NCBI GenBank assembly: GCA_024244665.1
Contig: JAAEOI010000607.1
Location: 1-9,918, forward strand
Source: Bacteroidota bacterium
Lineage (GTDB): Bacteria > Bacteroidota > Bacteroidia > Bacteroidales > GCA-2748055
DNA length: 9,918 bases
Direction of reading: 5' to 3'
The notes beneath the pieces were generated by a model that saw only the letters and a program-made list of their open reading frames with translations, did no database searches and was not told the origin of the DNA. Shown piece after piece: positions 1,999 through 9,918 of this stretch. Position numbers and translations under genes: made by a program. Within the stretch, counting starts at the first letter, position 1. Each line of letters opens with the position of its first letter.

Positions 1999-3384
1999 TT
2001 ATGAACTGTACCGCAGCCACTTCCAGATCTCCCTATAGGTGATCTTTTTACCATACATCAGGATGCCGGTGCGGTAGACTTTCCCTGCTACCCAGGTCAT
2101 TCCCACAAAGGTGGTCACCAGCAATGATCCGGAAACCGCAATCTGCCACCAGGGAACCCCGAAGGGTATCCGAACCATCATCACCACCGGTGAGGTAAAG
2201 GGAATCAGGCTGGCCCAGAAGGGGAGTGCCCCGTCGGGGTTGTTCATGGCGCTGATCATTATGTAGATACCCAGGATCAGGGGGGCAATCACTGGAAATA
2301 TGAGCTGCTGCGTATCGGTCTCGTTGTCGACCATCGACCCTATCACTGCGAACATAGCGGCGTAAAGCAGGTAGCCGAAAATAAAGTAGAAGAGGAATGC
2401 TCCCAGCATGACCCCTGCATTGATGTTTTTAAGGGAGGTAAAAATCTCCATGGCTGCATCCATATCTTCCCCTGAAAGAACAGATCCGTCATCGGAAGCC
2501 AGGGCCTCTTCGATGCCTCCATCCATAAATAGCTCCGAACCCACCACCTGTTCAGTGGGAGTCTGGTTCAATTCCGGGAAAAAGGCAGCCTTCAGCCCGG
2601 TGATCAGCGCAAATGAGAGGACAGTCCAGATTATAAACTGGGTCAGGCCGGTGAGGCCCACCCCTACAATCTTGCCCATCATTAGCTGGAAGGGTTTAAC
2701 CGAACTGACGATCACCTCGATGATCCTGCTCACCTTTTCTTCAATCACCCCGCGCATCACCTGTGAGCCAAAGAAGAAGATAAAAAAGAAGATCAGTAAG
2801 CCGCTCAAATAGCCCACTCCCATCTTCACCCCGGTGTGGGTCTCCTGGCTCTCCCCGTCTTTGGTCCATGTGATGCTGCGCAGGTTCACTTTGGTCTCCA
2901 CCTCGGCCAGGATCCGTTCGATGTCATGAATATCATTGGCAGCCAGCTTCAGATGTTCAATCTCACTCTCCATAGAACGCCTGATGTGTTCACTCACCTC
3001 CAGGGAGATAGTTTTGGTAGAATAGAGCCGTGAGGTTTCGGAAGCCATCAGGTTCGGGGGGATGTAGAGGATCGCATAGTAGCCCGATGCCTCAAAACCC
3101 TCTTTGAAGGTCTCCAGTGGAACTCCTTCGATGACCTGAAATTTCAGGTATTCCCCGTCGGGAATCACACAGGTGGCAGCTCCGGATCCGTATTCGGTAA
3201 AGAGTTTTGATTCGTCCAGCACCACCACGGTTTTCTCATCCTTGTCCTCCAGCGTTGCAAAATACATGGGGATCAACACATAGGCCGCGAAAATCAGGGG
3301 CCCCAGGATAGACATAATGATAAATGATTTCTTCCGGACCCTGGTGGTGTACTCCCTTTTAATGATCAGTGATATCATGCTCAT
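1999..3384 (-). CDS. ABC-2 type transporter permease (NatB-like)
   Basis: Integral membrane subunit of an ABC exporter, 461 residues. One membrane helix near the N-terminus (about 22-42) is followed by a large polar, presumably extracytoplasmic, domain (about 43-187). A C-terminal membrane block follows, with helices near 188-206, 238-262, 325-350, 362-380 and 413-433. The segment GVIEEKVSRIIEVIVSSVKP (212-231), just after the second helix, and SLIPFTSP (392-399) are typical of the NatB/YhaP group of ABC-2 permeases. An acidic loop of about 60 residues sits between helices three and four. The ATG at 3384 overlaps the ATPase stop codon by 4 nt, so the two are probably translated in fixed ratio. 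Substrate unknown; NatAB of Bacillus exports sodium, but related systems act on other substrates. Confidence 0.92.
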   Translation of the reverse strand: MSMISLIIKREYTTRVRKKSFIIMSILGPLIFAAYVLIPMYFATLEDKDEKTVVVLDESKLFTEYGSGAATCVIPDGEYLKFQVIEGVPLETFKEGFEASGYYAILYIPPNLMASETSRLYSTKTISLEVSEHIRRSMESEIEHLKLAANDIHDIERILAEVETKVNLRSITWTKDGESQETHTGVKMGVGYLSGLLIFFFIFFFGSQVMRGVIEEKVSRIIEVIVSSVKPFQLMMGKIVGVGLTGLTQFIIWTVLSFALITGLKAAFFPELNQTPTEQVVGSELFMDGGIEEALASDDGSVLSGEDMDAAMEIFTSLKNINAGVMLGAFLFYFIFGYLLYAAMFAVIGSMVDNETDTQQLIFPVIAPLILGIYIMISAMNNPDGALPFWASLIPFTSPVVMMVRIPFGVPWWQIAVSGSLLVTTFVGMTWVAGKVYRTGILMYGKKITYREIWKWLRYSS

Positions 3385-4319
3385 CTTGCCTGCCTGTTTT
3401 TGTTGCTTGCATCCTTCACCACCTGGATGAAAATATCGTTCATGTCAGGGAGGATTTCATGGAAAGCCTTTACATCAGTAATCTGCACCAGGTTTTTCAG
3501 CAGTTCATTGGATCCGCCGTCACGGGTAACCCTTATGGTTGCCTCCTGGCCACGGCCGTTCTCATCCATATGCAGAAGCTCAAATCCCGTTTCGAGTCCG
3601 CCGCTCAGCTTCTCCGGTTCCCCCTTAAAGTGTACCTTATATTTGTTGGCCCGGTACATATCCCTGACCTGGTTGATTTCGCCCTGAAGTACCACCTCCG
3701 ACTGGTTAATCAGCGTGATGTGATTACAGAGTTCCTCCACCGATGCCATGTTGTGGGTGGAGAAGATGATGGTGGCACCCTTCTCCTTCATCTGGAGGAT
3801 CTCGTTCTTAAGCAGGTTTACATTGATGGGATCAAAACCACTGAATGGTTCGTCGAAAATCAGCAGTTCGGGTTCATGCAGTACCGTGGTGATGAACTGC
3901 ACCTTCTGGGCCATCCCCTTGGAGAGCTCCTCCACCTTCTTATCCCACCAGCCGCCAATCTCGAACTTCTCAAACCAGACCTTCAGCCGTTTGAGGGCCT
4001 CAGCCCGGCTCAGTCCTTTCAATTGTGCAAGATAGAGCGCCTGCTCTCCCACCTTCATTTTTTTATAAAGGCCCCGCTCCTCGGGAAGATATCCGATCTG
4101 TGATCTGTGCTCGCTTCCTATAGGTTGGCCGCGGAACAGGATGGAACCCTGGTCGGGTGCGGTAATCTGGTTGATGATCCGTAGCAGGGTGGTTTTCCCT
4201 GCACCGTTGGGTCCCAGTAATCCGTAAATGCTTCCTTCGGGGACTTCAAGGGAGACCTTGTTCAGTGCCCTGTGGCCGCTGAAGTCCTTGATAACTGCAT
4301 CGGCAGTAATAAGGTTCAT
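3381..4319 (-). CDS. ABC transporter ATP-binding protein (NatA-like)
   Basis: Cytoplasmic ATPase subunit partnering the downstream permease, 312 residues. Walker A GPNGAGKT is at 36-43, the Q-loop region [11 protein letters not shown] at 75-85 (with Glu where many families have Gln), the signature LSKGM at 132-136 in place of LSGGQ, Walker B LLIFDEP at 152-158 with catalytic Glu157, the D-loop SGFD at 160-163 and the switch His189. The residues after about 210 form the C-terminal extension seen in NatA-type ATPases (DUF4162-like). The LPEERGLY and LSKGM variants are usual for this subgroup, so the protein should be active. Its ATG overlaps the dnaJ stop by 4 nt and its stop overlaps the permease ATG by 4 nt. 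Confidence 0.95.
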
Positions 4320-5473
4320 TCAAAAAAGTTTTTCATTCGGTGGAAAAATCCGTTCTCCGATTTATCGGGACGGGGTGTAAAACTATCGGATTGCTCCATT
4401 TTTTCAAATAATTTCTTCTCCTCCTTGTCCAGCGTTTTGGGAATCCAGACATTGATCTGCACCAACAGGTCGCCCCGACCATAACCGTTCACTTCAGGTA
4501 CACCTTTCCCTCTCAGGCGAAGAATCCTTCCAGGCTGCGTCCCGGCTTCAATCTTTATTTTAGCCATACCTTCCACGGTGGGGATCTCCACTGTTGAACC
4601 CAGGGTAGCCTGGGGAATGGTCAGGTAGAGGTTGTAGACCAGGTCGCTTCCGTCTCTGGTCAGCTCCGGGTGGTTTTCTTCCTGGATGATCACCATCAGG
4701 TCACCATTCACTCCTCCACGGCGGGCTGCATTACCCTTACCGCCCAACTTCACCTGCATGCCCTCTGCCACACCGGCGGGGATGTTGATCTTGATTACTT
4801 CCTCCTCTTTCACGATTCCTTCACCATAGCACGATTCGCACTTCTGGCTGATGGTTGCGCCCTCACCGTGACAGGTGGGACAGACCGAAGCGGTCTGCAT
4901 CTGGCCCAGGAAGGTATTGGTTACCCGTGTAACCTGTCCGGTTCCGTGGCAGGTGTTGCATGTATTTTTCGCAGTTCCGTTCTTGGCACCAGAACCATCG
5001 CATGTTTTGCACGAGACATATTTCTTAACCTTGATCTTTTTCTCAACACCCTCGGCCACATCCTGCAGGTTCAGTTTTACCTTCACCCTCAGGTTGGAAC
5101 CTTTGGTAACTCCTCCCCCGCGGGAGCCTCCGCCTCCAAAACCTCCAAAACCTCCAAAGCCTCCAAAACCGCCGAATATATCCCCGAACTGTGAGAAGAT
5201 GTCCTCCATGGACATTCCGCCGCCATGGAATCCTCCTCCTCCGCCATTCTCAAAGGCAGCATGTCCGAACTGGTCATATTTCTGTCGTTTCTGATCGTCC
5301 GAAAGCACTTCATAGGCTTCCGCCGCCTCCTTAAACCGCTCTTCCGCCGCCTTGTCACCGGGATTCTTATCCGGGTGGTTCTGAATTGCCTGTTTCCTGT
5401 ACGATTTCTTAATCTCTTCCTGGGATGCGTTTTTGGAAACCCCTAATATCTCGTAAAAATCTCTTTTTGCCAT
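4316..5473 (-). CDS. dnaJ: Chaperone protein DnaJ (type I Hsp40)
   Basis: Co-chaperone that delivers unfolded clients to DnaK and stimulates its ATPase; cytoplasmic, 385 residues, the usual length. The J domain (about 4-68) has the essential HPD at 33-35. A Gly/Phe-rich linker covers about 75-120. Four CxxCxGxG zinc motifs begin at Cys155, Cys172, Cys198 and Cys212, and the two beta-rich client-binding domains follow. I start it at the ATG at 5473 ([11 protein letters not shown]); the frame extends three codons further only through a TTG. It lies 22 nt after grpE, so the pair is co-transcribed, and its stop overlaps the ABC ATPase start. dnaK is not in the window. Confidence 0.98.
5133..5177 (-). 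repeat. 9-bp repeats encoding the DnaJ Gly-Gly-Phe tract
   Basis: Four consecutive 9-bp units (CCTCCAAAA on the plus strand, one with a G at the last base) at 5133-5168, followed by a diverged unit to 5177, encode the [14 protein letters not shown] tract around residues 101-114 of DnaJ. Near-identical codons over a low-complexity tract suggest recent slippage, so linker length may vary between strains. Confidence 0.8.
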
Positions 5474-5495
5474 ATGGTTCAATTAACCCCCGTTA

Positions 5496-6089
5496 TTACT
5501 CTCCAATTACCACCTTTGCGAATCGAAGCACCCTGTCGTTCAGGTAGTAGCCCTTCTGTATCACATCCACCACTTTGCCCTTCAGTTTCTTGGAAGTAGC
5601 CGGGATCTTGGTGATCGCCTCGTGAAGGTCGGTGTCAAACGCCTTTTTTATCGCTTCAATCTCTTTGACACCCTGCTGAGCAAGGAATCCGCTGAATTTT
5701 CCTGAGATCAGTTTCATCCCCTCCTTCACAGCAACAATGTCTTTTGCCTCATCCACCACCTGCAGTGCACGATCGAAATCATCGGCCACCGGCAGCAGGG
5801 CATTCAGCAGGTTCTCATTGGCGCTTTTCTGCAGGTCGATCTTCTCTTTGAGGGTGCGTTTCCTGAAATTGTCATATTCGGCTGACAACCTGAGGTAGCG
5901 ATCCTGTAATTCTGCCAGTTTTTCCTCCGCTGTGGGCTCTTTTTTCTCCTCAACAGCCTCATTTTCTTCGGTCTCTTCAGATCCCTCTTCCTTTGAAGTC
6001 TCTTCCTGAACCTCCTCCTGGTTCAGCTTCTCTTCAACTTCAATTTTTTTAACTTTCTGTTTATCAGATTTATGCGACTTATTGGCCAT
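5496..6089 (-). CDS. grpE: Nucleotide exchange factor GrpE
   Basis: Releases ADP from DnaK in the DnaK-DnaJ-GrpE cycle; cytoplasmic dimer. At 197 residues it has the usual length. Residues 1-55 are a highly charged Lys/Glu-rich tail with little predicted structure. A long helix, about 55-95, contains the family-typical YLRLSAEYDNFRKRT. The C-terminal beta domain ends in GYYLNDRVLRFAKVVIGE, a strong family signature. The ATG at 6089 is preceded by AGGAG with 8 nt spacing, the clearest ribosome binding site in the window. It is the first gene of the five-gene minus-strand unit. Confidence 0.98.
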   Translation of the reverse strand: MANKSHKSDKQKVKKIEVEEKLNQEEVQEETSKEEGSEETEENEAVEEKKEPTAEEKLAELQDRYLRLSAEYDNFRKRTLKEKIDLQKSANENLLNALLPVADDFDRALQVVDEAKDIVAVKEGMKLISGKFSGFLAQQGVKEIEAIKKAFDTDLHEAITKIPATSKKLKGKVVDVIQKGYYLNDRVLRFAKVVIGE

Positions 6090-6649: not shown

Positions 6650-7453
6650 ATGAATATTGACACTCCATCCGAAAGTCTTGCCCCATATGTGAAGAGCTAC
6701 TGGGGAATGGAACACACGGTTCCCAAGGGAGGGGACTACCTCTACCGGGTTGTACCCTCCGGACTTTCGGAACTGATGTTTTACCTGGGTGATCTTCCCG
6801 GATCGATGGATCCGGGAAAGATCATCACAGAACACTCCTTGCTTTCAGGTCAGCAAAAGGAGTATTATGACCTGCGGATTACCGGGACGCTCAATCTGTT
6901 TTCGGTTATCTTCCAGCCCCACGGTCTGATGGTCTTCTTTGATTTGCCCCTGCAGGAGATTTTCAATCAGAATGTCTCTCTGCGCCATATCCTTAAAGAT
7001 GCGGTTACTGAACTGGAAACCCAACTGTATGAGGCAGGCTCCTTCCCGGAAAGGAAACACATTGTTGAGTCATTCTTAAGCGACAGGCTGGCCGGCAGTA
7101 AGAAGAAGTATGAATTTGACCGCATTAGGTGCTGCATTGAGATCATCAACCGCTCTGGAGGGGAGGTGGGTATCGACACCCTCGCCTCCCATGCCTGTTT
7201 GTCAAGGAAACAGTTTGAAAGGATTTTCCAAACCCATGTGGGCAGCTCCCCGGGGCAGTTTCTGAAGACGGTGAGGTTTCAGAGGGCCGTGCACGAAAAA
7301 TCCCGGAACAGAGGAATGAGTCTTACCGAACTTACCTATCGGGCGGGTTACTATGATCAGTCCCACATGAACGCCGAGTTCCAAAGGCTGGCCGGAATGA
7401 CCCCCGGACAATATTTCGCCAGCTGTGATCCCTTTTCCGATTTTTTCAATTAA
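6650..7453 (+). CDS. AraC-family transcriptional regulator
   Basis: DNA-binding regulator of 267 residues. Residues 1-150 form an N-terminal domain of the kind common in Bacteroidota AraC proteins (DUF6597-like; starts PSESLAPYVKSYWGME, then VVPSGLSELMFYLGD). The C-terminal AraC domain has two helix-turn-helix units at about 175-200 (GIDTLASHACLSRKQFERIF) and 224-247. It ends in the family hallmark AGYYDQSHMNAEFQRLAGMTPGQY. There are 18 nt between the VOC stop and this start, so the two are probably co-transcribed and the VOC protein may act in the same response. The gene ends convergently against the response regulator gene, the stop codons sharing TTAA at 7450-7453. Ligand unknown. Confidence 0.93.
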   Translation: MNIDTPSESLAPYVKSYWGMEHTVPKGGDYLYRVVPSGLSELMFYLGDLPGSMDPGKIITEHSLLSGQQKEYYDLRITGTLNLFSVIFQPHGLMVFFDLPLQEIFNQNVSLRHILKDAVTELETQLYEAGSFPERKHIVESFLSDRLAGSKKKYEFDRIRCCIEIINRSGGEVGIDTLASHACLSRKQFERIFQTHVGSSPGQFLKTVRFQRAVHEKSRNRGMSLTELTYRAGYYDQSHMNAEFQRLAGMTPGQYFASCDPFSDFFN

Positions 7454-8148
7454 CTGGGGACCATAAACAGGTAACCTTTACCTTTGAGTGTTTGTATCCT
7501 GAGGCTGGTGTCGTGTTTGAAGTGATCCCTCAGCTTTCGGATATAGACATCCAGGTTTCTGGAGTTGAAGAAGGAATCGTCGCCCCAGACTGAAATCAGA
7601 AGTTGTTTGCGGTCAATTACACGGTTCACCGATCCGGTCAGAAGAGTTAGAATTTCACCCTCGCGATGCGACAGTGAAATCAACTCAATGGGCGATTTAA
7701 GTTCATACCTTTGAGGGTAGTATGTATACTTTCCGAGCTTCAGCTCCTCCGGGGTATGCTGTCTCTTGTTTTCCCCTCCATTGCTGATGGCCATCTGATT
7801 CTCTATTCTTACAATCAGCTCCTCAATGCTAAAGGGTTTCCGCATATAATCAGTTCCCCCGGCCTCAAATCCCTTTACCAGGTCGGCCGTTTCGGTCTTG
7901 GCTGTAAGGAAAATGACAGGCATGGCAGGCTTAAGGGCTTTGATCTGATGGCATAATTCATATCCATCCACATGGGGAAGCATAATATCCAGTATACAGA
8001 TATTAGGGTCGAACGAAGCATGGAGGTGCTTAATAACCTTGGCACCATCCGTTTCCCAGATCACTTCATAACCCTGTTTCTCCAGGGTTTCAGAAACAAT
8101 CCTGCCAAGGTATTTTTCATCCTCTATGTAAAGTATCTTTGTCTTCAC
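7450..8148 (-). CDS. OmpR/PhoB-family response regulator (RprY-like)
   Basis: Two-component output protein of 232 residues. The receiver domain (1-120) has the acidic pocket Glu9/Asp10, the phosphoacceptor Asp54 (CILDIMLP), Thr82 and Lys104 (in MRKPF). The winged-helix DNA-binding domain (about 135-232) has LSHREGEILTLL, the recognition region around SRNLDVYIRKLRDHF and the closing hairpin IQTLKGKGYLF. The start is GTG at 8148, and the overlap GTGA contains the TGA stop of the kinase, so the pair is translationally coupled. GGTDYM replaces the common GADDYM before the active Lys. Expected to bind direct repeats as a dimer; the TTAACC boxes at 9675-9712 are the obvious candidates. Confidence 0.95.
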   Translation of the reverse strand: MKTKILYIEDEKYLGRIVSETLEKQGYEVIWETDGAKVIKHLHASFDPNICILDIMLPHVDGYELCHQIKALKPAMPVIFLTAKTETADLVKGFEAGGTDYMRKPFSIEELIVRIENQMAISNGGENKRQHTPEELKLGKYTYYPQRYELKSPIELISLSHREGEILTLLTGSVNRVIDRKQLLISVWGDDSFFNSRNLDVYIRKLRDHFKHDTSLRIQTLKGKGYLFMVPS

Positions 8149-9632
8149 TCTTTCTGAATTGGGAAGTGGAGAGTGAAGATAATTCCACCCTCCTGAGGAG
8201 CTGTATAAGAGATAGAACCCGTGTGCTGTTTCATTACCTGGGAGGCAAAATTGAGGCCCAGGCCGTAGCCCTTCACATCGTGCCTGTTGCCCTGTGGGAT
8301 TCTGAAGAACTTTTCAAAAACCTGGTTCCTGTATTCCTCAGGTATACCAGGTCCATGATCCCTCACTGTCAGTGTTGAACCCGATTTGTTACTCTCAATC
8401 TGAATCTCAATAACAGGCTCAGGACCGCCATATTTAAGCGAGTTGTCAATGAGGTTCATGATCACACTCTCCCCATAGACCGGGTCAAGGTATGTAGGGC
8501 ATTCACCCCTTTCCGGGATCAGTTCGACTTTAGCACCCGCCTCCCTGATGGGAACTTCAAGGGTTCTGAGTACGTTTCTGACCAGTCCGCATAAGTCATG
8601 AGTATCCCTGTTCAGGACCAGGGAAGGATTTCTAAGCATATCATGGTGAAGCACCTTCCCCACAAGTTTTTCGAGCCGCTCCAGTTCACCGCTTGCCATT
8701 TCAAGATATTCATCCGATGCCTTCGGATCTTTCCGGAAATCATATTTTCGAAGTGCTTCAAGGGCAATCTTGACGGTCGATACCGGAGTTTTAAGCTCGT
8801 GACTGATATTCCCGATAAAATCGTCCCGCAGCCGGTGCAGGGTGATCTGCTTTTTAAGATTCCAGGAGGCAAAAAGCAGGGCTGAAGCAGAGAGTATCAG
8901 CAAGACCAGTCCAAACAGAATCTGCGGAAGCATGGTAAGGATAAGGAAACCACTGATGTGTCTCACATGTATGAGAGGCAGACAACTGCCAGCGTTGCCC
9001 TCCAGTACAATTCCTGGAATCTTTGCCGCTTGTACGTTTTCGGGATCCTCACCAGTCCACTCCAGGGAAAAGTTCCATCCCTTCAATTCCAGAACCTTCT
9101 CCATCATGGAGAGCAGAGCTGCGGAATCCAGACTCATGGCAAGGAGATGCGGGTGACTGTCGCTTTTGAAGGCATCCACATTCTCATCAATGAAGAGCTT
9201 CACACTTCGAACTATTCGGTCCTTATTTTCAACAAGATCCCCGGAATTGAGATGCTTCATCATCACCACGGTTCCCCCGGAGTCAGTGAGTGTTTTATGA
9301 ACAGCCGTATCAGAATCCATTGAAACGAACTGTTTCATCATCACGACAGTTCCGCTGGAATCGGCCAGAGATTGATGAATCTCCTTCTCGGGGATGAATA
9401 CGTCGATGGTTAAAGAATCATCCAGCGAAGGAAAAACCAGGTTCATCATGAGCATGGAATCCACCATCCGGTCGTGAACCATATAATACTCGTGGCCCAA
9501 CTGGTCCTGAAGGCTGATACGCTCTTCACGGTACTGCCCGCACAGCCAGTAGATAAGAAAGCCGGTGAGCAGCAGCTGACTGCAGACCATGAGCAGAGTC
9601 ATCCATCGATATTCAGATTTGTGCGATTTCAT
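8145..9632 (-). CDS. Membrane sensor histidine kinase (RprX-like)
   Basis: Sensor partner of the downstream response regulator, 495 residues. Transmembrane helix 1 is at about 12-31 and a long hydrophobic stretch at about 229-257. About 195 residues between them form a periplasmic sensor domain without a family I can name. No HAMP domain fits: only about 20 residues separate the membrane from the H-box ISHELKTP with the phosphoacceptor His278. The ATPase part has the N-box around Asn397 (MNLIDNSLKYG), G1 DHGPGI (425-430), F-box FEKFF (439-443) and G2 GYGLGL (455-460). The sensor contains an internal duplication (residues 86-101 and 112-127). The ATG at 9632 is chosen because MKSHKSEYRW gives a basic pre-membrane segment; the predicted promoter leaves almost no leader. 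Confidence 0.95.
   Translation of the reverse strand: MKSHKSEYRWMTLLMVCSQLLLTGFLIYWLCGQYREERISLQDQLGHEYYMVHDRMVDSMLMMNLVFPSLDDSLTIDVFIPEKEIHQSLADSSGTVVMMKQFVSMDSDTAVHKTLTDSGGTVVMMKHLNSGDLVENKDRIVRSVKLFIDENVDAFKSDSHPHLLAMSLDSAALLSMMEKVLELKGWNFSLEWTGEDPENVQAAKIPGIVLEGNAGSCLPLIHVRHISGFLILTMLPQILFGLVLLILSASALLFASWNLKKQITLHRLRDDFIGNISHELKTPVSTVKIALEALRKYDFRKDPKASDEYLEMASGELERLEKLVGKVLHHDMLRNPSLVLNRDTHDLCGLVRNVLRTLEVPIREAGAKVELIPERGECPTYLDPVYGESVIMNLIDNSLKYGGPEPVIEIQIESNKSGSTLTVRDHGPGIPEEYRNQVFEKFFRIPQGNRHDVKGYGLGLNFASQVMKQHTGSISYTAPQEGGIIFTLHFPIQKE
9252..9377 (-). repeat. Internal duplication in kinase sensor domain
   Basis: Residues 86-101 (HQSLADSSGTVVMMKQ) and 112-127 (HKTLTDSGGTVVMMKH) match at 11 of 16 positions, with an offset of 26 residues (78 bp). 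The DNA also matches well: TTCATCATCACCACGGTTCC at 9256 on the plus strand against TTCATCATCACGACAGTTCC at 9334. A weaker third copy may lie at residues 52-67 (VHDRMVDSM, then MMNLV). The copies have diverged, with several changes conserving amino acids, which hints at retention under selection. Confidence 0.8.
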
Positions 9633-9639
9633 TTCTATA

Positions 9640-9668
9640 CAAATATAGGCGTCGCAGGACTTATCCAG
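9640..9668 (-). promoter_or_regulatory. Predicted promoter of the kinase-regulator operon
   Basis: On the minus strand TATATTTG (9647-9640) is identical to the -7 box proposed for grpE. CTG (9668-9666) lies 18 bp upstream at the -33 position. The start of transcription would fall only a few nt before the kinase ATG at 9632, so the mRNA would be leaderless or nearly so. The TTAACC boxes begin just upstream of its -33 element. Confidence 0.55.
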
Positions 9669-9674
9669 CTTTTC

Positions 9675-9712
9675 ATTAACCTTAATTAACCTTAATTGGT
9701 CGCTTCTTAACC
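9675..9712. promoter_or_regulatory. TTAACC direct-repeat boxes, candidate response-regulator operator
   Basis: ATTAACCTTA is repeated exactly in tandem at 9675-9684 and 9685-9694, and a third TTAACC lies at 9707-9712. The TTAACC copies start at 9676, 9686 and 9707, so they are 10 and 21 bp apart and face the same side of the helix. OmpR/PhoB-family regulators bind as tandem dimers to such direct repeats; Bacillus PhoP, for example, uses TT(A/T/C)A(C/T)A with a period near 11 bp. The boxes lie directly upstream of the -33 elements of both divergent promoters, the usual place for an activator. Binding by the encoded regulator is inferred. Confidence 0.6.
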
Positions 9713-9713
9713 A

Positions 9714-9741
9714 TTGGGTACAAATCTGTACTATACTTTTG
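9714..9741 (+). promoter_or_regulatory. Predicted promoter of the secreted-protein gene
   Basis: TACTTTTG at 9734-9741 matches TAnnTTTG. TTG at 9714-9716 is 17 bp upstream, slightly closer than the usual 19-20 bp, which fits a promoter needing an activator. The third TTAACC box ends one base before the TTG. Start of transcription would be near 9747, about 11 nt before the ATG. Confidence 0.5.
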
Positions 9742-9757
9742 AAACAAAAACATCAAC

Positions 9758-9918
9758 ATGAAAAAAGCAATCTTCTTTTACACGCTTCTGATCCTTTGTT
9801 CAACGGTAAGTGCCCAGCAGACCAATAATGGATTTCTGCTATCGGGTTCCGTTATATATGAGCAGATCGTCAAACTCAATATTCAACTTGACGGAGATGT
9901 TGCCCTGATGGCTGGAAA
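9758..9918 (+). CDS. Secreted protein, N-terminal fragment, possibly GLPGLI family
   Basis: The gene runs off the window; 53 codons are visible. It starts MKKAIFFYTLLILCSTVSAQ, a clear Sec signal peptide with likely cleavage after the VSA at residues 17-19. The mature start contains GSVIYEQIVKLNIQLDGD, which resembles the opening strand and repeat region of Bacteroidota GLPGLI-type proteins (G-x-I-x-Y-E, then L-x-x-x-L-x-G-D), a family of unknown function that often sits beside two-component genes. The naming GLPGLI motif itself would lie beyond the window. The divergent position next to the kinase and the shared TTAACC boxes suggest it is a target of the regulator and acts in the periplasm or outer envelope. 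The start is well supported, the family less so. Confidence 0.7.
   Translation, partial: MKKAIFFYTLLILCSTVSAQQTNNGFLLSGSVIYEQIVKLNIQLDGDVALMAG

Follow-up and report, generated by a model that had tools for sequence, protein, structure and literature searches.

The window, by which we mean the whole stretch of 9,918 nucleotides analysed, carries a sensor histidine kinase gene and an OmpR/PhoB-type response regulator gene on the minus strand, and the beginning of a GLPGLI family gene on the plus strand. The intergenic gap between the kinase (minus) and the GLPGLI gene (plus) is 125 bp long (9633-9757) and contains an array of TTAACC boxes between two -7 promoter elements. The features are listed below, with invariance counted over 19 aligned sequences (L080 left out).

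7450..8148, minus strand: OmpR/PhoB-type response regulator (Response_reg and Trans_reg_C)
8145..9632, minus strand: sensor histidine kinase (HisKA and HATPase_c Pfam matches; two hydrophobic stretches by hydropathy)
9640..9647, minus strand: -7 element TATATTTG of the kinase promoter (plus-strand letters CAAATATA), 36 bp left of box 1
9676..9681, plus strand: box 1, TTAACC, exact; invariant in 19 of 19
9686..9691, plus strand: box 2, TTAACC; spacing 10 bp to box 1; TTAAC in every sequence, final C in 17 of 19
9696..9701, plus strand: box 3, degenerate, TTGGTC here; spacing 10 bp to box 2; initial TT shared by 19 of 19
9707..9712, plus strand: box 4, TTAACC; spacing 11 bp to box 3 and 21 bp to box 2; TTAAC in every sequence, final C in 18 of 19
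9734..9741, plus strand: -7 element TACTTTTG of the GLPGLI promoter, TAnnTTTG, 58 bp from the start of box 1
9758..9918, plus strand: GLPGLI family periplasmic/secreted protein, first 53 residues; extends beyond the window (full-length record P0195, 257 aa)

The response regulator matched PF00072 with 90.1 bits and PF00486 with 65.1 bits, each above the cutoff, and this combination of a receiver and a winged-helix Trans_reg_C domain bore out its earlier assignment to the OmpR/PhoB type. Its gene opens with a GTG codon and has a 4-bp overlap with the stop of the kinase gene, which suggests coupled translation. The kinase has two hydrophobic stretches, at about residues 10-32 and 225-260, separated by roughly 190-200 residues, and then HisKA and HATPase_c. 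Its predicted model has a pLDDT of 69, with residues 51-150 below 60, and a search of a viral collection returned no match for it.

The N-terminal end of P0195 is identical to the window fragment, letter for letter, and P0195 matched TIGR01200 (GLPGLI family) with 147.6 bits over residues 3-232 (cutoff 50); the 53-residue fragment by itself scored 11.2 bits, below the cutoff. The window's secreted protein is a GLPGLI protein. Its predicted fold, compared with LolA, RseB and MucB, may be a LolA/RseB-like half-barrel. The first-pass annotation spoke of a secreted protein, and the periplasmic/secreted assignment held, but the gene does not stand alone: in 16 of 19 relatives it is the first gene of an operon that continues with an outer-membrane beta-barrel gene. 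For this outer-membrane protein (OMP), a search of solved structures found no match.

Several further features were seen in the window. The genes grpE and dnaJ and an ABC transporter pair (1999-6089; assigned by Pfam, with the ABC permease-like gene assigned by eye) neighbour the kinase-regulator pair. The same grpE/dnaJ/ABC/kinase-regulator order recurs by eye in L001 and L069 and is absent from the ORF lists of more distant loci. Past the 3' end of a Ppx/GppA gene (1021-1950) lie two tandem-repeat arrays, one at 502-770 (14.4 copies of a 19-bp unit, overlapped by a 29-bp row) and the other at 877-1021 (12-bp unit CCCAGCTGCCGA, 12.2 copies).

Within the gap, two exact tandem ATTAACCTTA units (9675-9684 and 9685-9694) and a further TTAACC at 9707, with spacings of 10 and 21 bp, were found exactly where the first-pass annotation had placed them. 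Its count of three TTAACC boxes was correct but incomplete, having missed the degenerate fourth half-site at 9696-9701. The 9.9-kb window contains TTAACC 10 times where 3.64 (sd 2.14) would be expected, a count reached in 2 of 200 shuffles, and with boxes this frequent a single one means little. When the gap itself (9633-9757) was shuffled 20,000 times with dinucleotides preserved, three boxes never arose, at least two arose in 53 shuffles, and a 10-bp pair in one. Box 3 reads TTAACC in L076, TTCACC in L073 and TTAGCC in L171. Since columns 20-21, counted from the start of box 1, are TT in all 19 aligned sequences, the array in this order comprises four positions, 0/10/20/31; outside the order box 3 is weak, and the TT at +20/21 is often absent. 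The resulting 10-10-11 spacing is as expected for two OmpR-type dimers.

Conservation of the array and its two promoters

Relatives were picked by kinase similarity alone, which gave 20 genomes from overlapping sets (13 of 393, 3 of 28 and 8 of 12). Upstream DNA was available for 19 of the 20, the locus of G001 being cut by a contig end. The 0/10/31 boxes, matching 17 or more of the 18 box bases, were present in 18 of these 19 relatives, whose kinases are 32-58% identical to that of the window. Mean pairwise identity was calculated from an alignment of 18 relatives and the window (19 sequences, L080 left out), and amounted to 0.97-1.00 for the boxes, 0.95 over the six fixed bases of the -7 motif, and 0.29-0.33 for the outer spacers. 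The tandem linkers are also conserved (0.87 for columns 6-9 and 0.63 for columns 16-19). The first-pass annotation had proposed comparing genomes that keep the gene order, and in this comparison the boxes and their helical spacing persisted in 18 of 19 while the rest of the gap had diverged; its reading of a shared control region is thus supported by sequence comparison. The array, kept at the same distances from both promoters in distant relatives, is likely a binding site of the pair's own regulator.

The GLPGLI -7 element, TAnnTTTG, lies at +58 in the window and in 17 of 18 operator-bearing relatives, and at +57 in the remaining one (L078). The kinase -7 element, CAAAnnTA, lies at -35 to -37 in the window and again in 17 of 18; L078 has no exact match. 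In the window this element (9640-9647) ends 7 bp ahead of the annotated ATG, a gap that would make the kinase mRNA nearly leaderless; the database protein P0001 starts at kinase residue 15 instead.

The first-pass annotation also described -33 elements in both promoters. This was not borne out, as columns 37-57 and -28 to -3 are weakly conserved. TTG at a spacer of 17-21 was present in 4 of 19 and 3 of 19 promoters, compared with 2 of 22 background promoters, and the ATTGGG at 9713-9718 of the window is unconserved. The -33 reading was therefore rejected for lack of a conserved -33 in either promoter. By geometry, box 4 occupies the -33 position of the plus-strand promoter; as the background promoters, a small set of 22, are likewise without a -33 element, we infer rather than observe that box 4 replaces it. 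The -7 element is by convention taken as centred at -7. On this convention the GLPGLI promoter has box 4 at roughly -38 to -33, and the kinase promoter has box 1 at roughly -40 to -45. Such positions are the usual place of an activator contacting polymerase.

A kinase search in the family of G673 was positive in 19 of 60 genomes and yielded 18 evaluable loci; three genomes (G673, G712 and G809) were initially encountered via the operator. Of the 18 loci, 15 kept 16 or more of the 18 box bases (18 in four, 17 in nine and 16 in two). The low scorers were L210, L216 and L225 with 15, 14 and 13 of 18, respectively; the maximum among 500 shuffles of 1200 bp was 14 of 18, so that L216 is not above it and L225 falls within the shuffled range. 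The kinase -7 element lies at -35 to -38 in all 18 loci. Fifteen loci have a downstream GLPGLI match, and their target -7 elements were located at +58 in nine, at +57 in L213 and at +48 in L214, L217 and L224; exact TAnnTTTG was not found as a target -7 in L211 and L225. The +48 class is one helical turn nearer than +58, and in a further locus, L166, the target-gene -7 lies at +47. With the target -7 element at +58 or one turn nearer, the helical face seems to matter, and the +48 class points to a protein contact on a fixed face.

Rearranged loci and specificity of the operator

In four loci (L164-L167) the beta-barrel gene is separate from the GLPGLI gene, and in all four it has an operator of its own; because these loci were found by the operator search, only their gene context counts as independent. 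Their stand-alone OMP promoters read TATTTTCG, TACTTTCG, TAGTTTTA or TATTTTCG at +58, with -7 elements matching TAnnTTT in 4 of 4 and exact TAnnTTTG in 0 of 4. L168 and Emticicia sp. L002, found by the operator and by kinase similarity, respectively, have an OMP-GLPGLI-kinase-regulator operon with a single operator in front (17 of 18 bases, -7 at +58). In G374 an operator accompanies the GLPGLI-OMP genes (L172), and the kinase locus, L080, is on another contig and has two TTAACG boxes at the -36 register without box 4. L210 and L216 keep boxes 1-2 and are without box 4 and without a downstream GLPGLI match. By eye, L210 has a GLPGLI remnant soon after box 2, having lost the promoter and start region and kept boxes 1-2 and the kinase promoter. 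Box 4 is absent from three of the four kinase loci that have no intact divergent GLPGLI gene; the exception, L208, keeps every box and has no GLPGLI match downstream. L225 is an exception of another kind, having a GLPGLI gene whose operator is poor, at 13 of 18. Where the operon is rearranged, the boxes stay with the target genes.

The pattern TTAACC-N4-TTAACC had 35 matches in 20 genomes, 16 at the module and 19 elsewhere, and the reversed control had 27. The 19 non-module matches compared with 27 in the control indicate no wider regulon at exact two-box stringency. One of the 19, at L173 of G374, reproduces the core exactly (TTAACCTTAATTAACC), beside genes that have no connection with the module. 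Among 39 loci of other, mostly unrelated kinases, many from other phyla (L002-L040), the operator occurred in one (L002); the Terrimonas locus among them (L003) contains a different kinase pair and no operator. It occurred in none of seven paralogue loci of G001. A three-box search with one mismatch gave 29 matches across 393 genomes from the order (13 at the module; reversed control 40, 21 of these in one genome) and 21 matches across 395 genomes from the phylum (10 at module genes; reversed control 18). The non-module sites comprise 26 distinct ones (one, in G166, is in both lists), of which four were inspected: L169, L175 and L176 are at no module gene, with a distant regulator-like protein near L176, and L174 is an rprX promoter.

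The rprX promoters of another family (L177-L206) carry TTAAC boxes at the -36 register; of 25 scored, 10 matched 14 bases or more out of 18, the register being the best of several tried. The regulator beside L174 is RprY by model (443.4 bits, cutoff 370), and RprY is also the best NCBIfam model of the window's regulator, at 201.1 bits, below that cutoff. We read the SFFNSRNLDVYIRKLR stretch as the DNA-recognition helix; it is largely kept across the module regulators, and RprY of L174 has a related stretch. The boxes in rprX promoters are possibly an autoregulatory operator of RprXY. The presence of similar boxes in promoters of another regulator means that a paralogue could bind at the window array. 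The first-pass idea of a self-contained module thus stands at the exact-match level only; the code is not private, with related boxes in rprX promoters.

Proposed mechanism and rival explanations

The array comprises direct repeats about one helical turn apart, beside a promoter and conserved in relatives, as in an OmpR/PhoB-type direct-repeat operator. We consider it probable that 9675-9712 is the operator of the regulator encoded at 7450-8148, bound by two dimers that would serve autoregulation and activation of the GLPGLI-OMP operon. The phosphorylated regulator would bind as two head-to-tail dimers on one helix face, one on boxes 1-2 and the other on boxes 3-4, an occupancy that would explain the four positions. 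Boxes 1-2 would serve the kinase-regulator promoter (autoregulation), while boxes 3-4, with box 4 standing in for a -33 element, would recruit RNA polymerase to the operon of the GLPGLI protein and the outer-membrane beta-barrel; this split of labour is suggested by the rearranged loci. The kinase may read the state of the envelope, as its two hydrophobic segments about 190-200 residues apart and the targets of the circuit suggest.

The identity of the binder, the sign of regulation and the significance of the repeats could each be read otherwise. Another OmpR-type regulator such as RprY, or several paralogues sharing the TTAAC code, could bind the array, leaving the adjacent regulator as not its sole or main binder. 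The TTAAC boxes in the same -36 register of rprX promoters in a subset of genomes, the RprY beside L174 (443 bits), and the related recognition stretch in RprY, the closest named model of the window's regulator, fit this explanation. We nevertheless judge it quite unlikely, given that the full operator is tied to the module gene set, accompanies that set through rearrangements and shows no excess at other sites. A chance or structural repeat, AT-rich and with no regulatory role, has a negligible probability; TTAACC alone is common in the window, but three boxes were absent from all 20,000 shuffles and the footprint extends across families. The shuffles and the cross-family conservation against diverged spacers were decisive, and the chance repeat was rejected.

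A fixed helical phase with a one-turn alternative is typical of polymerase contact. The target -7 elements have such a phase (+58 or +48), and neither promoter has a conserved -33, both of which argue against the alternative of repression at both promoters, in which the regulator would sit at -33 of one and near -42 of the other, blocking RNA polymerase until a signal removes it. Repression would agree with the overlap of box 4 and the -33 position, by geometry, and with the Riemerella anatipestifer PhoP, which has a TTTAACA core and raises some GLPGLI genes and lowers others, as far as its description was covered (PMC9603813); on balance it appears unlikely. The preferred reading, activation by the adjacent regulator, can be extended tentatively into a wider and doubtful, though conceivable, picture of a widespread Bacteroidota envelope circuit. 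In it a dedicated two-component system would act through a rigid four-position operator, one half driving the sensor operon and the other the genes for a LolA/RseB-like protein and an outer-membrane beta-barrel; the LolA/RseB-like protein, as periplasmic ligand or feedback partner, would report barrel cargo to the kinase, much as RseB does for sigma-E. The RprXY operator would then be a variant, and one regulator lineage would have spread the promoter code.

Related systems and significance

ArcA of E. coli, a member of the OmpR/PhoB family, recognises direct repeats with 11-bp spacing and protects 44 bp at astC and 48 bp at trxC, whose distal repeat lies two turns off, according to the part of the source covered here (PMC3798270). 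It resembles the window system in being an OmpR/PhoB regulator with one-turn direct repeats, and its footprints are as predicted for two dimers (PMC3798270). ArcA is by this partial account a global regulator with diverse sites, whereas the window has one rigid TTAACC operator with 10-10-11 spacing and one gene set.

Within the same phylum, R. anatipestifer PhoP has its TTTAACA core from DAP-seq, binds upstream of its own operon by EMSA, and has direct targets that include five GLPGLI genes and a beta-barrel gene, in the portions of the paper covered (PMC9603813). Likened by this published description, it shares with the window system the OmpR type and the GLPGLI targets; it differs in its 583 peaks, compared with essentially one site per genome here, and the same portions contain no rigid TTAACC array or divergent kinase/GLPGLI module (PMC9603813). 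HaeSR of Porphyromonas gingivalis is likewise a kinase-regulator pair of this phylum; HaeR binds its own promoter, the system concerns outer-membrane haem uptake, and a PG0720 mutant has two GLPGLI genes down (PMC3764172, PMC8757827). The likeness rests on the published descriptions, in whose covered portions no binding motif is given and the neighbours include the lipoprotein PG0717 (DUF2874), unlike the window (PMC3764172, PMC8757827).

RprXY of Bacteroidales provides the closest named regulator model, and some rprX TTAAC boxes are equally far from the kinase -7; however, the window's regulator scored 201 bits against a cutoff of 370, which a true RprY passes with 443, and so falls outside RprXY by this model. 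The periplasmic proteins RseB/MucB and LolA may resemble the GLPGLI protein in predicted fold. No description of the operator or the module was found in the running text of the open-access papers searched; the term GLPGLI occurs in three of these papers, and where the letters of the box were followed up they belonged to primers. Systems of this kind are known, but neither the window's member nor its rigid operator or breadth seems to have been described in the texts searched.

Pfam lists the GLPGLI domain (PF09697) as of unknown function. A one-site circuit defined by sequence would offer a direct route to the function of GLPGLI proteins and their beta-barrel partners, by asking what switches the operator on. 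The array motif may also allow annotation of the regulator's targets in unstudied genomes, and the natural series of arrays (intact, split, shifted by one turn, and without box 4) would provide tests of how OmpR-type regulators act on the phylum's -7-type promoters.
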